Assembly: GCA_016744575.1 (NCBI GenBank)
Contig: JADGEC010000018.1
Span: forward strand, 1-39,980
Length of the DNA: 39,980 bases
Direction: 5' to 3'
Origin: Sulfurimonadaceae bacterium
GTDB lineage: Bacteria > Campylobacterota > Campylobacteria > Campylobacterales > Sulfurimonadaceae
Shown here: in pieces, positions 27,985-37,188 of the stretch
Numbering within the stretch: position 1 is the stretch's first letter
Layout of the letters: each line of letters starts with the position of its first letter
Translations under genes and position numbers: made by a program
The notes under the pieces: generated by a model
Databases searched by the model: none
Seen by the model: only the letters and a program-made list of their open reading frames with translations
What the model was told of the DNA's origin: nothing

Positions 27985-29124
27985 CTAATACACCTTAAGA
28001 TGCATGAACATCTTCGCATTATGGACGTGATTGATGAAGATCGGGCGCTGTACCTCTCCCTCAATGACAGATATCCTATCATTTAGGCCTCTAAAGACTT
28101 CATGATCGCGCAGGCGTGAGTTTAGTTCATCACTCTTGCATCCACTACTGCACTGTGCCAATGCTTCCAACAAGAGAAGATAACTCTCGTAAGCCAGCTT
28201 ACTATGGGTGTTCAAGAGGATATCGTTCTTTTTGGCATAGCGTTCGAGAAGCACTTCCTCTATAGTAGCCACACTATCATCAGCGTAGTTCTCCGTGACG
28301 AAGAGACCCTCTACCGATCTTGCACCTTTAAGTCCATACTCTTTGAGACTACCAAGCATGCCATCACTACCGATGATGACCACATCCCAGTCCAACTCTT
28401 GACGTAGACGCAAAAGGTCGACCGATCTTTTCCCCTTTACCGACGTATATAGGACCTCTACCCCTTCTGTCTTCAGTCCACGCAGTATAGGTCTTAAAGC
28501 CTTGGTAGAGAGGCCTGATGTCATCTCAGCGATGATCTCACCTCCGATCTTCTTATACGCCTCCTGAAAAGAGTATGCAAGCGAATTGGAGTAAGCTGTC
28601 TCTGCATTGTAGAAGATGGCAGTCTTCTCTAAAAACAGTTCATCATGGATGAAGTATGCAGCCACCCTGCTCTGCTGTGCATTGCTCATACATACTCTGG
28701 AGATATAAGGGCTCCCGGTCGTTATCGACTCATGAGAAGCTAACGCTACGATGACGGGGAGCTTCTGAGCGTTGATGACTTTTGTCATGTTCATCACACC
28801 ATCACTTGTCGAGAGCGTGATGAGAGCATCAAGCTTCTCTTCTGCCAACAGTCCCAAAAACACCTCTGCTACTTTTTTCGGACTGCTCTCATCATCTTTG
28901 ACTATCAGTTCGATCCTGTCACCGATCGCTGTCAATGGATGGATGGCATATGCAGCTTGTAAGCCTTCGAGTGCTTTACGACCTATCGATGCACTATCCC
29001 CACTAAGTGGCCCGATAACACCTATTTTAAAGACCTTTCCACTTGGCTTTATCGTCTCTCGCTCTCCACAGCCTGTCAAAAAGAGCATAAGTGAGAACAC
29101 CACAAAGAGGTAAAGAGTTCTCAT
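27985..29124 (-). CDS. Periplasmic substrate-binding lipoprotein, branched-chain amino acid/leucine-binding type
   Basis: The 379-residue protein has a lipobox (LTGC, Cys19) and a Peripla_BP_6 fold starting KIGVIGPLSGDSASIGRKAL, with EGLFVTENYADD later. Such proteins capture amino acids or other small ligands for an ABC importer or a sensor. No permease or ATPase gene is near. It overlaps the DUF389 gene by four bases (ATGA), so the two are co-translated; that pairing is unusual and may indicate a sensory function. Confidence 0.8.
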   Translation of the reverse strand: MRTLYLFVVFSLMLFLTGCGERETIKPSGKVFKIGVIGPLSGDSASIGRKALEGLQAAYAIHPLTAIGDRIELIVKDDESSPKKVAEVFLGLLAEEKLDALITLSTSDGVMNMTKVINAQKLPVIVALASHESITTGSPYISRVCMSNAQQSRVAAYFIHDELFLEKTAIFYNAETAYSNSLAYSFQEAYKKIGGEIIAEMTSGLSTKALRPILRGLKTEGVEVLYTSVKGKRSVDLLRLRQELDWDVVIIGSDGMLGSLKEYGLKGARSVEGLFVTENYADDSVATIEEVLLERYAKKNDILLNTHSKLAYESYLLLLEALAQCSSGCKSDELNSRLRDHEVFRGLNDRISVIEGEVQRPIFINHVHNAKMFMHLKVY

Positions 29125-31025
29125 AAGATGTACTCCACTTCCGCACGGATAAAGAGTTTGTGTTCGACCTGGTCTTGGAGTCTTTGCCTGAGCAGTTCCA
29201 GGTCCTGACGTTTTAAGGCTTCGCGAACAGAGAGGGTAAGGTCGATGACGGTCACCTCATCCCTATCCACGACCGAGACGGATTTGATGATGACATATTT
29301 ATCGTTGACCAAAAAACGTGACTGTTCTATGAACTTCTCCAACTGGTAACTTTGGATTATCTTACTGTAGGAGAAGTAGAGAGGAAAACTCGTAGCGATC
29401 AACAGTGCCGAGACGATGAACATACTTTTTCTACTCTTGACGACACTGGAAAAACCAAGTGCCTGAAAGGTCAAAGTCGCTGCGATCGAGATACCGACAA
29501 GGTTAGTAAAGAAGAGTAAGAACGCACCGAAGAAGACATCCATGTTACCTTGACCCAGACCGATCCCCGCGACTGAGAGCGGTGGTACCAATGCGACGGC
29601 GATCGCCACACCCGCCAGACTCTGTGCGATCTCTTTGAAGGATTTCGAGTACGCTGCTGCCACTCCCGAAAAGACCGCTACTCCCATATCTAGCAGATTT
29701 GGGTTGATCCTCGATTTCATCTCGTTGGTCAGGGCCAACTCCGGCAGCAGTAAAGCTACCCCTGCCGATGCCAGAAGGGCCAGTGTGATCCCCGCCGTGA
29801 TCTTCATCAGAGAGAACTCGATCATCCGCTCATCAGCGCGCAGCATGCCCATCGCGAAAGAGACAATAGGTGCCATCAGCGGTGCAAGCAGCATCGCTCC
29901 GATGACGACTGCACTGCTGTTAGAGAAGAGTCCTATGGTCGCCAGTATTGTACTAAGGAGCATCAGTACTATGTAGTGCATGTCGGTCTCAGAATCTTTA
30001 CGCAGTGATAAGAAAAGCTCCTTAAAACGCTCTTCTGACGCATAGGAGAAGAAAGGGATGTGTGAGTTCAGATACTTCTTCATCTCCTTCTCATCAGGGA
30101 GATTATCTATCTTTATAGTCTCTTTTTCCGGACTCTTCTGCACATTTTCTTCCCAGAACTTGGCACCGGCATTGATCTTTATCCCATGCTCTTTGACTTT
30201 GAACTTTGCCGGAAGCGCTACACTGGAGTGTTCATCAAGGACCACCTCTTTACTTCCAATAGCATTGACCGTGATCTCTTTGCTTTTAATGATCCCGATG
30301 GCGTCAGGCAGTGTCTTTTGTGTACTGGAAAAGGTGATGATGGAAAAAAGGAACTTCAAGTATTCGACCACAGAGAAAGGTGAGACGAGGACAAGCAAGA
30401 CCTGACCATCACGCCGGGAGTGATCAGAGAGGATCATACGTGAAAGGATACTCTGTCTTCCATGTTCGAGCACAAAGGCACCACTCGCTGCAGTCCTTAT
30501 CTTCTTGCCATTGGCAGTCTCTATCTCGAACTGCTGAAGGCGCATCTTGAAAAACTGCGAGGCTCCTATCTTTAGCGCATGAAAGACCATACCCGGTCTG
30601 CCTCTTTGACTGACAAGGTCTATCAGCGGCACTTGGCCTATGGTCGCTTTAAACTCGACAAGGACTCCGTTACACTCTATGAGATCGATCTCTTTTGCAT
30701 CATCACGCAGAGCGATCTCGATGTTCTCATCGACCTTTGAGGAGAGATCAAGTAGTCGGACAAACTGCTTTTGCGAGTCTAGTGGTAAAAAAGCGAGTGT
30801 GAACTCCTGCTGCGAACCGAACATCATGATCTGCTTCGCGACTTCTATATCCGCAGCGACTATGACATGCCCGACATCAGTAAGATATTTTTTGGGGTCT
30901 AGTAAGAGATGAGAAGCTTCGACCGCCGTCACTTCTACATCAAAGGGGTTCGCTTTGAGCTGTTCAAGGTACTTCTTACCACTATCATCACTGATAAACA
31001 GTACCTTTTTCTTATACTCCATCAT
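29121..31025 (-). CDS. DUF389 membrane protein with N-terminal diacylglycerol-kinase-like domain
   Basis: The 634-residue protein has two parts. Residues about 1-290 resemble the YegS/DAG-kinase fold: a Rossmann-like start (VLFISDDSGKKYLEQL), FLPLDSQKQFVRLLDL where kinases have the GTGND region, and a beta sandwich with DGQVLLVLVSP and a LPAKFKVKEHGIKINAG end. The catalytic GGDGT is not visible (VAADIE in its place), so it is probably inactive. Residues about 340-550 are the DUF389 membrane core: SSAVVIGAMLLAPLMAPIVS, GMLRADE and GVAIAVALVPPLSVAGIGLG. The tail forms a small domain. Its role is unknown. GGAG precedes the double ATG. Confidence 0.75.
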   Translation of the reverse strand: MMEYKKKVLFISDDSGKKYLEQLKANPFDVEVTAVEASHLLLDPKKYLTDVGHVIVAADIEVAKQIMMFGSQQEFTLAFLPLDSQKQFVRLLDLSSKVDENIEIALRDDAKEIDLIECNGVLVEFKATIGQVPLIDLVSQRGRPGMVFHALKIGASQFFKMRLQQFEIETANGKKIRTAASGAFVLEHGRQSILSRMILSDHSRRDGQVLLVLVSPFSVVEYLKFLFSIITFSSTQKTLPDAIGIIKSKEITVNAIGSKEVVLDEHSSVALPAKFKVKEHGIKINAGAKFWEENVQKSPEKETIKIDNLPDEKEMKKYLNSHIPFFSYASEERFKELFLSLRKDSETDMHYIVLMLLSTILATIGLFSNSSAVVIGAMLLAPLMAPIVSFAMGMLRADERMIEFSLMKITAGITLALLASAGVALLLPELALTNEMKSRINPNLLDMGVAVFSGVAAAYSKSFKEIAQSLAGVAIAVALVPPLSVAGIGLGQGNMDVFFGAFLLFFTNLVGISIAATLTFQALGFSSVVKSRKSMFIVSALLIATSFPLYFSYSKIIQSYQLEKFIEQSRFLVNDKYVIIKSVSVVDRDEVTVIDLTLSVREALKRQDLELLRQRLQDQVEHKLFIRAEVEYIL

Positions 31026-31044: not shown

Positions 31045-31404
31045 CTATTTCTTGATCTTTGGCATAGGCATGATCGGCTTAAACACCACATCGACAAACT
31101 CATGGACCATCCACGTAAATCTGCTTTCATCCATCGCCTTTTTGACATAAGGACCGGCAAGGGGCACCTTCGACGTCAGGACAAAAGCATGTTCTATGAC
31201 ATAGTCCATAGGGTGGATCATCTCATCATCACTATCTTTGGAATTATTTGCAGAGTAGATCTGTTCCTGGATGACACCATCATCATCTTCGATTCTCTTC
31301 TCTAAAGTCTGGATATGTCCATTGATGATGTTGGCACTTTGTGTGTAGGTCTCACCTTTGACTTTTTTAGTCGCTTTTATCTTTAATTGGTTTCTATTAC
31401 TCAT
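31045..31404 (-). CDS. Uncharacterised 119-residue protein, leaderless start
   Basis: The Lys-rich start (SNRNQLKIKATKKVKGE) is followed by a polar region and a helical C-terminal half ending FKPIMPMPKIKK. No signal peptide. The gene is preceded by TATAAT (31416-31411) and six bases, then ATG, without a Shine-Dalgarno. It is followed by the DUF389 gene 19 bp downstream and is likely the first gene of that three-gene unit. No family recognised. Confidence 0.6.
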   Translation of the reverse strand: MSNRNQLKIKATKKVKGETYTQSANIINGHIQTLEKRIEDDDGVIQEQIYSANNSKDSDDEMIHPMDYVIEHAFVLTSKVPLAGPYVKKAMDESRFTWMVHEFVDVVFKPIMPMPKIKK

Positions 31405-31862: not shown

Positions 31863-33305
31863 ATGAGACTCAATGAACTTACTCTGACTACCGACTATCT
31901 CGATCTGGACCCGCTCTTCTTTCATGAGGTGGCACCGACTCCATTGAAAAGACCGCATCTCATCAGCTTTAATCCTGATGCAGCGAGATTGATCGACCTT
32001 GACGTCGACTCTGATGATGATCTAGAGCTGGTAAATGTACTCAACGGCTCTCATCTTTTCCAAGGTAGCAGACCCTTCGCGATGTGTTACGCCGGACATC
32101 AGTTTGGTCACTATGTCCCGCGACTTGGTGATGGAAGAGCTATAAACCTTGGTAGAGCAAACGGGTGGGACTTGCAGCTCAAAGGTGCTGGTATCACACG
32201 CTATTCCCGTCAGGGCGATGGGAGAGCCGTTCTACGCTCCTCCATTCGGGAGTACCTGATGAGTGAAGCGATGCATGGACTGGGCATCCCAACGACTCGC
32301 GCACTGGCACTCATCGGTTCTGATGAGGATGTCGCACGTGAGCGCTGGGAGAAGGGTGCCATCGTGCTTCGACTCTCACCTACCTGGGTCCGTTTTGGGA
32401 GTTTTGAGTATTTTGCTCAACATACGAAGACACATCCCCATCTTGAGACCCTTGCAGAGTTTGCCATCGCTGAGGCCTATCCGGAACTCATCGGGGAAAA
32501 AGACCATTTTTTCTTGATGTATGAGCAGGTCGTCCAACGTACGGCCAAGCTACTTGCACAGTGGCAGAGTGTCGGTTTTAATCATGGAGTCATGAACACA
32601 GACAACATGTCCATTGCGGGCCTGACCATCGATTATGGCCCTTATGCTTTTCTCGATGATTATGATTTTGACTACATCTGCAACCACACAGACCATGAAG
32701 GCCGCTACAGTTTTGGCAATCAGCCTCCTGTTGCCCATTGGAACCTCAATCGACTTAAACGAGCGCTTGCTCCCATCATAAGTATAGACCGGATGGAAAA
32801 GGCACTTGAGACCTTTGGTCCACTTTACAGTGATACTTATCTACGTATCATGTTCACAAAACTTGGTCTTCAGAGCTACTCAGCCGAAGATGAGCCACTA
32901 CTTAGAAGATTGATGGAGATCATGCAGCAGCACACCATCGACTACACCCGTTTCTTCCGCCTTCTAAGCCACTATGATGGAGATAGAAAAGAGCTTCTTG
33001 CCCTCACACCTATTCCCTCACACTCCCTTGTCATATGGCTGGATAGTTATGATGAACGCCTTGGGAGAGAGGCACTGAGTCATCAAGAGCGTTGTGAGAA
33101 GATGCTCGCTACCAATCCCAATTATGTCCTAAAGAACTATATGCTGCAAGAAGCGATTGACAAGGCAGAAAAAGGGGACTTTAGTGGAGTCGATGCACTG
33201 ATGAAGATCGCTTTAGCTCCCTTTGATGAACACCCAGGACTCGAGCGCTTTTCAAGAGCGACACCAGATCAGGCTAAGAACCTGAAGCTAAGCTGCTCTT
33301 CTTAA
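31863..33305 (+). CDS. selO: SelO/YdiU family protein AMPylator (pseudokinase fold)
   Basis: The 480-residue protein has a protein-kinase-like fold that binds ATP in a flipped orientation and transfers AMP to Ser/Thr/Tyr of target proteins; the E. coli and yeast proteins act in redox stress. Signatures seen are YAGHQFGHYVPRLGDGRA, DLQLKGAGITRYSRQGDG, FNHGVMNTDNMSIAGLTIDY (catalytic and metal-binding Asn/Asp) and SFGNQPPVAHWNL. The C-terminus ends LSCSS: the cysteine stands where many eukaryotic homologues carry selenocysteine. No Shine-Dalgarno is evident before the ATG. Confidence 0.95.
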   Translation: MRLNELTLTTDYLDLDPLFFHEVAPTPLKRPHLISFNPDAARLIDLDVDSDDDLELVNVLNGSHLFQGSRPFAMCYAGHQFGHYVPRLGDGRAINLGRANGWDLQLKGAGITRYSRQGDGRAVLRSSIREYLMSEAMHGLGIPTTRALALIGSDEDVARERWEKGAIVLRLSPTWVRFGSFEYFAQHTKTHPHLETLAEFAIAEAYPELIGEKDHFFLMYEQVVQRTAKLLAQWQSVGFNHGVMNTDNMSIAGLTIDYGPYAFLDDYDFDYICNHTDHEGRYSFGNQPPVAHWNLNRLKRALAPIISIDRMEKALETFGPLYSDTYLRIMFTKLGLQSYSAEDEPLLRRLMEIMQQHTIDYTRFFRLLSHYDGDRKELLALTPIPSHSLVIWLDSYDERLGREALSHQERCEKMLATNPNYVLKNYMLQEAIDKAEKGDFSGVDALMKIALAPFDEHPGLERFSRATPDQAKNLKLSCSS

Positions 33306-33333: not shown

Positions 33334-36300
33334 TCAAGACCTCTTCTCTAGGGCATTCTCCTTGATGAACTTCTCCATCGCCTCTGCATCCATCGGTCTG
33401 CCATAGAGGAAGCCCTGTATATATCTACAGCCATTGTTTATGAGGAAATCTCTTTGTGCCTCCGTCTCGACACCTTCAGCGATAAGACTTAGACCCAGGT
33501 TATCTGAGAGTGTGATGACTGTTTTGACAATAGCAGCATCATCCTTATCTTCTGGAAGGTCCCGGATAAAGGACTGATCGATCTTCAGTTTATCTATAGG
33601 TAAGCGTTTGAGATAAGCAAGGGATGAGTAACCCGTACCAAAATCATCAACAGCCAGACTCACACCAAGATCGCTGATCTTCTGTAAGATAGATACAGCC
33701 ATCTCGGGGTCTTTCATCACATGCCCTTCTGTGACTTCTATCTCTATAGAGTCTGGCCTGCAGCTGTTCTCATGGAACACCTTATGAAGTACCTCTAAAA
33801 GGTCCTCCTGCTGAAGCTGTTTGACCGAGAGGTTGATCGCTACTTTTTTCGGGTCAAGTCCCTGCTCCCACCATTCGGAGAACTGCTTGATAGCCCTTTG
33901 CATGACATACCTGTCGATCTCGACTATCAGTCCTGTCTCTTCCGCCAGAGGGATGAACTTCGCTGGTGACACCAGACCCATCATAGGATGCCTCCATCGT
34001 ACCAGAGCCTCCATCCCGATAAGCTCACCTGTCTCACCGTTCATCTGAGGCTGATAGTAGACGATGAACTCCTCTTTGTCCAGAGCCTGTCGAAGACTAC
34101 TTGCCATCACAATACGTTCAAAGGCCCGCTCTGTCATCTCCTCAGTATAGAAACGGTACGTGTTTCGGCCATCCTCTTTGGCCTTATACATCGCAGCATC
34201 AGCATTTTTTAGCAGGATATTTGACTTTAAACTGTCATCCGGATAGATCGTCGCACCAATACTCAAGGTAGCATAAAGCTGATGCTCCTCGATGACAATA
34301 GGCTCTGTCATGGCATCGAGAAGTTCTTTGATGATATCCACGATCGTATGCGTATCATGAAGAGCGTCCAAAATAATAGTGAACTCATCACCACCAAGAC
34401 GGGCGATGGTATCTGTCTCACGTACCTGTTGCTGCAGCCGGATACTGACTTGTCGCAACACCTCATCACCGACATGATGACCTAAAGAGTCGTTTATCTC
34501 TTTAAAGTGATCGAGATCGATGAACAGAAGTGCGACTTTCTTATGATTACGATGCCCCGATATGATCGCCTGAGAAAGTCTGTCCATGAAAAGTTCACGA
34601 TTTGGCAGTCCAGTAAGACCATCATAATGCGCCTGATGTCTTAATATCTCCGTCTGCTCTTTTATCTTCTCTTCTGCTTCGACACGTTCGGTGATATCTT
34701 GAGCATAACCTACCATGCCGATAGCTTTTCCCTTATCATCTTTCAGTAAAGAGAGCGAAAGGTCGGCAAACATGATGACTTGAGATCTTTTGAGCATACG
34801 AACGACATCGTGATGCTCTCCCTCTTCTTTTAAGCGTATGATGTTCTTTTCAAGGTTCTCGAAATCCTCTGGCAGATAGACAGACGTGATATGCTTACCG
34901 ATCATCTCCTTGGCTGTATACTCCAAAAGTGATTCTGATCCGGCATTCCAACTGGTGATGACACCCTCAAGGTCTGTAGAGATGATCGAGTCATGCGTCT
35001 GTTCAATGATCTGTGCCTGATGCGCATACTTAAGCTGCATCTCTTTCTCTTCGGTGATATCAGTATGTGTCCCGACCATACGGACGGCCTTACCATTCTC
35101 ATAGATTATCTGGGCTCTACCTAATATCCAGACCCAATGCCCATCTTTATGTCTCAGACGATGGTTGTTCTCAAAGTGCGTCATCTTGTCTGTCTTGATC
35201 TTATAAAATCCACTAAAGACGATCTTCTTATCATCTCGATGCACACGTTCCTTCCATGTCAAGGTCCTATTTGGAAGCTCTTCATCCGTAAACCCAAGCA
35301 TCATCTTCCAACCGGGAGAGATATAGAGACTATTATCCGTGAGATCCCAGTCCAACACAGATGTCTTGCTCCCTATGAGGGCCAGCTCCATCCGTTCTTT
35401 CAATCTCTCGTTCTTTTGGTTAAGCCGTTGTAAGACACGCTGCCGATAGACTAAGAAAAGAAAGAGTATGAACGTACCAAGGAGCAGCTTCCAGATCAAT
35501 TCATTATCGAATCTTGAGATAGTGTCTACATGCCGCCACTTTGCCATTATCTTTTGGCGTTCAGCTGCATCTATACTTTTCATAGCTTTATCTATGATAC
35601 TGTGCAGGATCGGTTCATCTTTACTCACGAAAAGTGTGACATCCATCATGATATCAGTCCGACCGACTATCATCAAATTATCTGATGCCATCTGTGTGAT
35701 GGTGTAGCTTGCAAGCGCAAGCGAAGCCAGCATCGCATCATATCGCCCGGTCTCGACACCCAGTAGACCCTCTTGAGCATTTTCGACTTCGATGAAGTCA
35801 ATATCCGGATATTTTTGATAGACATCTGCTGTGTAACCATAGTCCTTGATGATAGCTATCTTTTTCTCTGCGATCTCGCCTAGCTTATCTACGTACTTTG
35901 CATCATGATCCATCACGATGACAATAGGGTTGTTGATGTACGCCTCTATAGGAGTGAACTTTTGTTCTAGGATGGCATCGGATGCATCCCCTGAGATGAT
36001 ACTGGCTTTTCCCTCCATGGCGATATCAAGCGCATCCGTCCAAGTCGTCGGTACCACTTTCTCAAAACTGATCGGTAAAGTAGCTTCTATCAGTGCAAGA
36101 TGATCTGATACGATCCCGATGTAACCACCACTCTCATCAAACGCTTCAAATGGCAACCAGTTTGGATCACCCGTGAACGTGACACTCCGATGATCTGCCA
36201 GCCATTGACGCTCTTCTTCAGTAAGTGCTATTGTGTCTTGTTCACTTTTAACAGCCTCATAGATAAGTCTGTCGGTATCCTGAGCACTATCGATCTTACC

Positions 36301-37188
36301 GCTTCTGATCAGTTGTCCTAAAGTCTTTGTGACAAACTCTTTATTGATCTCGCCGACCTCATAGATATTTGTGAGCATGAGCTCTTTGGTCCTTGCACCT
36401 TCAGATTTTAGCAGTACAAGCGATTTGTTGGATTGATACTTCTTATGGATCAGCTCTGCGACTTCATCAATATGCTCCAGCGCATACTCCCAGCCTTTCT
36501 TGCTTGCTGACAAAAAGGCGTGGATCTGGCCAGGTTCTTCTTCGACCTTCTCATACGATACAAAAAGATTGATGGCATTTGTCGAAAAACCATGCTCTAC
36601 CGGGTCGATGATATTATAGGAGATGTTCCGTTCATTGAGTTCAAAGATCTCATTGGAACTAAATGCAGCTATCGCATCCACTTTTCTCTCTATAAACTCA
36701 TCGAGTCTGAAAGTCTGCTGGACAAAGGTCGTGTTCTCCGGATCGATATTGTAATACTCCAGCAGAATAGAGAGTGAACTGTTGTCACGATCGTTCTCAG
36801 TCATCATGATCTGCCTGCCTTCGAGATCGATCGGACTCTCTATCTCAGGCTGAGTGATCAGGACAAATGGGGAGCGTTGAAGATAGGTCGCAAGCAGCGT
36901 GACATCGTCTAGTTTTCTATCACTAAACGCGATGATGCTGTTGCTAAGGGCGAAGTCTGTCTTACCATCGACGAGTTCTTGCATCGAGTTGCCATTATCA
37001 TATTCCAGCAGCTCCACATCCAGACCTGCATCCCTATAATAGCCTCTCTCCTTGGCCGCAATAAAACCGGCAGACTGGAAATGGTATTTCCACTGCAGCT
37101 GTAAGGTCACTTTTTCCAGTGGTGACTCAACTGAAAGAAGCATGATCGGAGACAATAGAAGTATTAGTAGGGACCGTAATGTCATCAC
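33334..37188 (-). CDS. Dual periplasmic-binding-domain sensor with PAS-PAS-GGDEF-EAL
   Basis: The 1284-residue inner-membrane protein has a signal peptide, then an NMT1/THI5-like binding domain (VTLQLQWKYHFQSAGFIAAK; about 25-240). An SBP_bac_3-type domain follows (VTFTGDPNWLPFEAFDESGG; about 335-560). One transmembrane helix (about 561-583), two PAS domains (about 600-850), a GGDEF domain with intact RLGGDEF (near 930) and an EAL domain with GMEALVRW (near 1060) and DDFGTGYSSL complete it. Both cyclic-di-GMP synthesis and breakdown motifs are present. The first domain suggests thiamine-pyrimidine, nitrate/sulfonate-like or related ligands. Stand-alone gene. Confidence 0.9.
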   Translation of the reverse strand: MMTLRSLLILLLSPIMLLSVESPLEKVTLQLQWKYHFQSAGFIAAKERGYYRDAGLDVELLEYDNGNSMQELVDGKTDFALSNSIIAFSDRKLDDVTLLATYLQRSPFVLITQPEIESPIDLEGRQIMMTENDRDNSSLSILLEYYNIDPENTTFVQQTFRLDEFIERKVDAIAAFSSNEIFELNERNISYNIIDPVEHGFSTNAINLFVSYEKVEEEPGQIHAFLSASKKGWEYALEHIDEVAELIHKKYQSNKSLVLLKSEGARTKELMLTNIYEVGEINKEFVTKTLGQLIRSGKIDSAQDTDRLIYEAVKSEQDTIALTEEERQWLADHRSVTFTGDPNWLPFEAFDESGGYIGIVSDHLALIEATLPISFEKVVPTTWTDALDIAMEGKASIISGDASDAILEQKFTPIEAYINNPIVIVMDHDAKYVDKLGEIAEKKIAIIKDYGYTADVYQKYPDIDFIEVENAQEGLLGVETGRYDAMLASLALASYTITQMASDNLMIVGRTDIMMDVTLFVSKDEPILHSIIDKAMKSIDAAERQKIMAKWRHVDTISRFDNELIWKLLLGTFILFLFLVYRQRVLQRLNQKNERLKERMELALIGSKTSVLDWDLTDNSLYISPGWKMMLGFTDEELPNRTLTWKERVHRDDKKIVFSGFYKIKTDKMTHFENNHRLRHKDGHWVWILGRAQIIYENGKAVRMVGTHTDITEEKEMQLKYAHQAQIIEQTHDSIISTDLEGVITSWNAGSESLLEYTAKEMIGKHITSVYLPEDFENLEKNIIRLKEEGEHHDVVRMLKRSQVIMFADLSLSLLKDDKGKAIGMVGYAQDITERVEAEEKIKEQTEILRHQAHYDGLTGLPNRELFMDRLSQAIISGHRNHKKVALLFIDLDHFKEINDSLGHHVGDEVLRQVSIRLQQQVRETDTIARLGGDEFTIILDALHDTHTIVDIIKELLDAMTEPIVIEEHQLYATLSIGATIYPDDSLKSNILLKNADAAMYKAKEDGRNTYRFYTEEMTERAFERIVMASSLRQALDKEEFIVYYQPQMNGETGELIGMEALVRWRHPMMGLVSPAKFIPLAEETGLIVEIDRYVMQRAIKQFSEWWEQGLDPKKVAINLSVKQLQQEDLLEVLHKVFHENSCRPDSIEIEVTEGHVMKDPEMAVSILQKISDLGVSLAVDDFGTGYSSLAYLKRLPIDKLKIDQSFIRDLPEDKDDAAIVKTVITLSDNLGLSLIAEGVETEAQRDFLINNGCRYIQGFLYGRPMDAEAMEKFIKENALEKRS

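Follow-up and report, generated by a model that had tools for sequence, protein, structure and literature searches.

The DUF389 locus

The stretch of DNA analysed here, referred to below as the window, comprises 39,980 nucleotides (positions 1 to 39,980) of contig JADGEC010000018.1 from a Sulfurimonadaceae bacterium (assembly GCA_016744575.1). On its reverse strand, an open reading frame (ORF) at positions 29121-31025 encodes a 634-residue DUF389 protein whose N-terminal half resembles diacylglycerol (DAG) kinases, and the stop codon of this gene overlaps the start codon of a downstream lipoprotein gene by four bases (ATGA). An initial annotation, made from the sequence alone, had described a DAG-kinase layout joined to a DUF389 membrane core and co-translated with a lipoprotein; each of these elements was recovered, by profile searches, structure prediction, Pfam matches and the overlap of the two genes. 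The observation is real and larger than first stated: a conserved pseudo-lipid-kinase sits on a membrane core that is uncharacterised, one clade adds a candidate partner lipoprotein, and the same layout recurs in relatives from several phyla, which places it beyond chance. The window genome has one DUF389 gene, and no PF00781 match was found anywhere in it.

AlphaFold models of the protein were built from alignments of 16 and 75 rows and reached mean pLDDT values of 79.8 and 87.1, respectively. In these models residues 1-295 form an alpha/beta and beta-sandwich half, followed by a linker and a short helix (residues 335-345), then by seven predicted membrane helices (residues 349-568), the second of which is broken, and finally by a small beta-alpha domain (residues 569-634). 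The coordinates of all features are collected in Table 1.

Table 1. Features of the DUF389 locus, in window coordinates
Feature	Positions	Strand	Remarks
DAG-kinase-like domain, DUF389 membrane core and C-terminal domain	29121..31025	-	634-aa protein
Residues 1-295, DAG-kinase (YegS/DgkB) fold without nucleotide motifs	30141..31025	-	Profile and structure comparison
Residues 57-62 (AADIEV), place of the GGDGT loop	30840..30857	-	Register +/-1 residue
Residues 80-88 (LPLDSQKQF), place of LPxGTxND	30762..30788	-	
D114	30684..30686	-	Aligns with DgkB D124; D in 70/75 rows
D206	30408..30410	-	Aligns with DgkB D215; D in 69/75 rows
D264	30234..30236	-	Aligns with DgkB D271; D in 71/75 rows
Residues 330-568, predicted membrane core (DUF389 plus seventh helix)	29322..30038	-	Whole FNT chains align to model residues 328-530
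Residues 569-634, C-terminal beta-alpha domain	29124..29321	-	Predicted non-cytoplasmic
R570	29316..29318	-	Invariant with lipoprotein; lost in 4 clade rows without it
Y577	29295..29297	-	Invariant with lipoprotein; lost in 4 clade rows without it
Peripla_BP_6 lipoprotein, 379 aa	27985..29124	-	Lipobox LTGC; 4-base overlap with DUF389 gene
119-aa ORF	31045..31404	-	No Pfam family; 19 bases upstream of DUF389 gene; module membership uncertain

Relatives and alignments

Relatives with the same layout were found in at least six phyla, namely Campylobacterota, Pseudomonadota, Thermodesulfobacteriota, Bacteroidota, Ignavibacteriota and Planctomycetota; Gillisia and Pontibacter are examples of relatives that can be cultured. 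Among 60 genomes, the window's own included, 20 had a match and 17 had the long form, and 31 of 228 genomes of the family matched at E 1e-60. Shorter DUF389 frames of about 310-490 residues, by length alone too short to hold a kinase-like half, occur in some of the 25 genomes reached through the loci. The N-terminal domain itself was detected at E 1e-5 in 12 of 200 genomes of the phylum, always inside frames of 605-674 residues; a stand-alone relative was found in none of these 200 genomes at that threshold, which sets the domain apart from the YegS/DgkB/BmrU lipid kinases (PF00781 plus PF19279) as one fused to a membrane core.

The main alignment (A2) has 75 rows: the window, 12 of the 19 other loci of a first set and 62 of the 80 loci of a second set. 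Left out were ten partial, cut or masked genes (L003, L006, L045, L051, L060, L065, L074, L086, L088 and L099), two loci from genomes already used (L009 and L014), three short DUF389 proteins (L018-L020) and ten full-length rows whose removal limits redundancy; the tree and the co-variation test do include L003, L006, L065 and L099. A further set of 17 loci served as later material, in which a motif filter recovered the protein at 13 loci, once as a fragment.

A DAG-kinase fold without its nucleotide motifs

On its own, the window protein gives weak matches in sequence searches. DAGK_cat (PF00781) matches residues 61-118 weakly (E 0.092; 12.8 bits against a cut-off of 23.6), the NCBIfam lipid-kinase model PRK00861 matches residues 75-301 at E 6.1e-8 and below its cut-off, and a phmmer search of the PDB with this single sequence returned one chain only, an unrelated receptor at E 4. 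A profile of the 75 N-terminal halves (A3) reached PDB entry 4wer at E 1.8e-18, three Bacillus DAG-kinase sequences at about 1e-14, DgkB (2qv7) at E 6.1e-8 and YegS at E about 6e-7 to 8e-7. With the predicted structure, Foldseek found 3t5p at E 7.0e-13, and VIA superposed the 75-row model on DgkB (2qvl) with Z 20.9 over 259 aligned residues at a root-mean-square deviation of 3.0, the 16-row model giving Z 20.3. Within the 75 rows, Pfam at E 0.01 finds YegS_C in 15 and DAGK_cat in 4, and PRK00861 at E 0.001 matches 48. Profile and predicted structure together show that residues 1-295 have the two-domain fold of the YegS/DgkB-type DAG kinases, as the initial annotation had supposed from its layout.

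The same annotation had noted that the GGDGT nucleotide loop is replaced, and this is true of the family as a whole. In the window its place reads AADIEV, of which the by-eye register takes AADIE and the profile register ADIEV, and the place of LPxGTxND reads LPLDSQKQF. GGDGT, GGDG-like motifs and GTxND are all missing from the N-terminal parts of the 75 aligned rows; the best agreement in any row is two of the five GGDGT positions, in either register, and two of the four GTxND positions, with the string GTxN present in two rows. Likewise, the first 150 residues of 80 relatives of the larger set (eight of them partial, cut or masked) hold no GGDG-like motif. An Asp in the loop is common to 11 of the 75 rows in the by-eye register, the window included, and stands in the GGDGT-Asp column of 39 rows in the profile register, the window not among them.

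Other parts of the putative active site are kept. Strongly conserved columns of the 75-row alignment are D114 (70 rows), N119 (69), G130 (73), G182 (72), D206 (69) and D264 (71), together with P216 (all 75) and S218 (71), which follow the DG strand. The alignment with DgkB pairs D114, D206 and D264 with D124, D215 and D271 of DgkB, which we take to be active-site acids of its catalytic or metal side, roles that reportedly go back to Miller et al. 2008. The 12 later rows with an N-terminal half all have Asp at these three places and lack any GGDG-like motif.

Judged by these motifs, the N-terminal domain is probably non-catalytic. Since the loss of the loop is family-wide, the term pseudo-enzyme is better supported than any one sequence could make it. 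The earlier proposal of a lipid- or nucleotide-sensing pseudo-enzyme thus stands in its pseudo-enzyme part, at the level of sequence, while nucleotide sensing appears less likely than lipid sensing, because both nucleotide motifs are gone and the acids of the catalytic or metal side are kept.

The membrane core

The DUF389 assignment is firm (PF04087 at residues 378-513, E 1.5e-37, 129.1 bits against a cut-off of 23.9), and the core carries the VIGAM-LAPLM-P and VALVPP motifs of DUF389 proteins, although the window protein misses the cut-offs of the corresponding NCBIfam models (93.7 against 94.75 bits for TIGR00341; 121 against 146.5 bits for TIGR00271). More than half of the invariant core positions, 16 of 30, lie in helix 2 (IGAM, P382, P386 and R396) and helix 5 (G472, V473, VAL, PP, G489 and G491).

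Among the 50 matches listed per structure comparison, entries of the hydrosulfide channel HSC, a member of the FNT channels (FocA, NirC, HSC; PF01226), were the only ones aligning with the core. They comprised one entry for the 75-row model (Z 11.4) and four for the 16-row model (Z 11.5-11.8), with 197-201 residues aligned between model residues 328-530 and the whole channel chain. A Foldseek search of a viral structure library ranked a phage FNT protein fifth (E 0.11, probability 0.92). According to PMC5525234, FNT channels have six helices, the second and fifth of them broken, around a pseudo two-fold axis, and PMC12559229 describes an FNT N-terminal helix able to reshape or block the cytoplasmic entrance. 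The model of the window protein likewise has a helix before helix 1 and a broken helix 2. An FNT-like fold of the DUF389 core is, on these predicted structures, about an even bet. No sequence similarity between the core and FNT channels was found. Unlike FNT channels, which have a conserved pore His, the core shows no His among its invariant or nearly invariant columns, and the model continues with a seventh helix and a C-terminal domain.

Three further observations concern the core and FNT proteins. PF01226 has no match in the window genome at E 0.001; a PF01226 match in a 662-residue protein at another locus (L112), presumably a site-specific recombinase, was not counted as an FNT relative; and comparison of the two halves of the core with each other by hhalign gave no match. 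A DUF389 protein of Mimivirus AB-566-O17 (BFVD A0A1X9VNW0) matches the model over 200 columns with a TM-score of 0.79 for the target.

Predicted sidedness and the candidate partner lipoprotein

The mean number of Lys plus Arg residues per sequence, over the 75 rows, is 0.00 in the loop between helices 1 and 2, 1.49 in loop 2-3, 1.64 in loop 3-4, 1.96 in loop 4-5, 0.16 in loop 5-6 and 2.76 in loop 6-7. Loop 3-4 excepted, this charge pattern agrees with a protein whose N-terminus is inside, which crosses the membrane seven times and whose C-terminal domain is outside. The structure-match lists are filled by the kinase-like domain, and no fold is claimed for the C-terminal one.

The lipoprotein is a type I periplasmic binding protein of the LivJ-like kind (Peripla_BP_6, PF13458, E 1.2e-35). 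In an alignment of 16 members (A6), 14 match PRK15404 at E 0.01 and the lipobox Cys is kept in at least 90%, L023 being without it; the aligned rows also share an invariant C-terminal Tyr, at a VKVY end. Such proteins are known as partners of ABC transporters, whereas here the lipoprotein is paired with a DUF389 protein, and no ABC permease or ATPase was found among five window neighbours or the ten downstream proteins of relatives that were scanned. The lipoprotein profile found no relative in a viral collection.

Co-occurrence of the two genes follows the tree, which was built by a quick method with SH-aLRT support only. A lipoprotein gene lies directly downstream in 18 rows, all of them within one clade of 22 rows that spans three phyla, and overlaps by four bases in the window and six relatives. 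Its presence on the tree takes three changes, which would agree with a single gain and a loss at each of two places, the trio L006-L008 and L058. When 18 genomes were searched in full, an orthologue (433-530 bits) turned up in the eight genomes whose locus has the lipoprotein, none in the three trio genomes (81, 93 and 97% complete), a distant match only (55.7 bits) in the L058 genome and none in six genomes outside the clade. The check proposed with the initial annotation, co-occurrence of the lipoprotein gene, came out in favour of a linkage within the clade: where the gene is missing from the locus there, no orthologue was found elsewhere in the genome. For the other loci outside the clade, absence refers to the flanking sequence examined, which at some loci is cut short.

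Co-variation points to where the two proteins might meet. Among 630 positions, just two combine conservation of at least 85% across the 18 rows with the lipoprotein with absence from all four clade rows that lack it. R570 is found in 18 of 18 rows with the lipoprotein, is replaced by H, H, H and A in the four without, and occurs in 4 of 57 rows elsewhere; Y577 is found in 18 of 18, is replaced by E, E, E and A, and occurs in 0 of 57. Y577 is absent from all 13 additional rows whose loci lack the lipoprotein, and Arg stands at 570 in two of them. Eight of the 19 positions specific to lipoprotein-bearing rows lie in the 66-residue C-terminal domain. This post hoc co-variation suggests that domain, the one that the predicted sidedness places in the periplasm, as the contact with the lipoprotein.

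Neighbouring genes

MscS-type channel genes make up 10 of 548 neighbouring ORFs from 91 loci (duplicates L009 and L014 contribute 5 of the 548), compared with 0.85 expected, an expectation that assumes one gene per kilobase, takes its rate from 41 Campylobacterota genomes (140 MscS matches in about 89 million bases) and is applied to all phyla. Six of the ten lie directly adjacent on the same strand (L011, L056, L063, L068, L070 and L090); the MscS model scores those of L068 and L063 weakly, the latter being confirmed with PF00924. In the 17 further loci six have an MscS gene (two of them weak), all from the window's own family. At a guess, these neighbours hint at a role in ion or osmotic balance.

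A P-type-ATPase-like protein was recognised by eye near L012, near L014/L096 (one genome) and near L058, and at L026 an ion channel follows the lipoprotein. In the Sulfurovum group (L035-L095) a series of von Willebrand/BatD-like genes, recognised by eye, lies upstream of the long DUF389 gene at 10 or 11 loci. In the window itself, a gene for the protein adenylyltransferase SelO, itself an enzyme with a pseudokinase fold, is close to the DUF389 gene (31863-33305, forward strand; PF02696, E 2.2e-134), and a 1284-residue sensor with NMT1, SBP_bac_3, PAS, GGDEF and EAL domains is encoded at 33334-37188 on the reverse strand. The 119-residue ORF just upstream of the DUF389 gene has an 83% identical counterpart in a genome of the same genus, the sole other match among the loci compared. 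Promoter and terminator scans of the locus gave no clear excess over shuffled sequence (7 against 5.0, and 2 against 2.7).

Interpretation

The reading we favour, with a probability of roughly 0.4, is that of an inner-membrane channel or carrier, formed by the DUF389 core and probably controlled in a non-enzymatic manner from both sides. The kinase-like domain would lie in the cytoplasm at the membrane surface and phosphorylate nothing, its kept acidic site binding a lipid head group, a phosphate or a metal. The state of the domain would be relayed to the core through the helix at residues 335-345, ahead of the first transmembrane helix, a position that in FNT channels is taken by a regulatory N-terminal helix. 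In the lipoprotein-bearing clade, as the co-variation suggests, the periplasmic C-terminal domain may dock the co-translated binding lipoprotein and so receive a second, outer input. A bolder version, in which an FNT/aquaporin-like DUF389 pore is held between a dead DAG-kinase domain that reads lipid or phosphate inside and a docked type I lipoprotein that reads a solute outside, would be a new kind of gated channel; it is an unlikely, speculative form of the idea. For the earlier suggestion that a membrane channel or carrier is being regulated, support is indirect: the core model resembles FNT channels in predicted structure, and MscS genes are over-represented nearby.

Several observations weigh against this picture. 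For the core, the profile found no chain in the PDB and gave a probability of 0.1% in a profile comparison with seven FNT sequences, and Z values under about 13, such as those to HSC, can according to the tool's own guidance be chance for helical bundles; weaker core matches to other folds may lie below the 50 matches listed. The modelled seventh helix and unbroken helix 5 are unlike FNT proteins, and an internal repeat of the core scored no better than shuffles, 105 of 300 reaching its profile-profile score. Loop 3-4 is as basic as an inner loop. For the kinase-like domain, the nucleotide site is not wholly unlike that of a kinase, given the Asp at the GGDGT-Asp place in 39 rows (profile register), and the kept acids may be structural. 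The test that singled out R570 and Y577 was made post hoc and rests on two independent losses, and MscS neighbours occur mainly in Sulfurimonas-like and Methyloprofundus lineages, so that their count overstates independence.

Other explanations account for parts of the same evidence. The kinase-like domain could be purely structural, dimerising or anchoring the protein and binding no ligand. In favour of this, it diverges faster than the core (mean column identity 27% against 62%), and PMC6240735 describes the human DAG-kinase-fold protein AGK as acting in the TIM22 translocase in a way that seems not to depend on its being a kinase. AGK (7cgp_B, Z 16.0 to the window N-terminal domain) thus offers a case of this fold attached to a membrane channel complex, although by the same source it is a separate subunit that also works as a lipid kinase, and its membrane partner is a different protein. 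A pure scaffold, however, fits less well because a scaffold need not keep active-site acids, and D114, N119, G130, G182, D206 and D264 remain conserved (69-73 of 75 rows) despite the lost loop; we regard this explanation as rather doubtful. More doubtful still is a core that moves lipids as a flippase or scramblase, with the kinase-like domain handing over or sensing the head group of a lipid such as diacylglycerol. Its fold is indeed that of lipid kinases, and an UppP-like gene (undecaprenyl-pyrophosphate phosphatase, recognised by eye) lies within four genes at 4 of the 91 loci and directly upstream at L081, yet inspection by eye of the neighbour clusters common to at least four loci showed no further gene of lipid metabolism, and no lipid transporter is among the listed structure matches of the core.

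It is very improbable that the N-terminal domain still works as a kinase through an altered nucleotide site. An Asp is kept at the places of all three DgkB active-site acids and, in 39 or 11 of the 75 rows depending on register (the window among the 11 counted by eye), at that of the loop Asp; against this, no row exceeds two of five GGDGT or two of four GTxND positions, and in the window protein PF00781 and the lipid-kinase models stay far below their cut-offs. Equally improbable is a lipoprotein that is a mere neighbour, or a lone ABC-type binding protein, unrelated to the membrane protein. Although 61 of the 79 tree rows and all 17 further loci have no lipoprotein beside the gene, its position directly downstream in most of a clade that spans three phyla, its overlap in the window and six relatives, the lack of an ABC permease or ATPase family among the ten downstream proteins scanned, and two residues that track its presence all argue for a partnership.

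Significance

In the literature search, DUF389, TIGR00341 and TIGR00271 appeared in no title or abstract found (papers on DUF3892 and DUF3893 are unrelated to DUF389), and a literature search on lipid-kinase pseudokinases brought up no paper about the family. To our knowledge, non-catalytic roles of the DAG-kinase fold in bacteria are hardly described, and here a lipid-kinase domain persists in several phyla although its ATP loop is lost. DUF389 itself is a widespread family of membrane proteins with no known function; with this analysis it gains a testable fold, a predicted sidedness, a candidate partner protein and two residues that appear to be linked to that partner.

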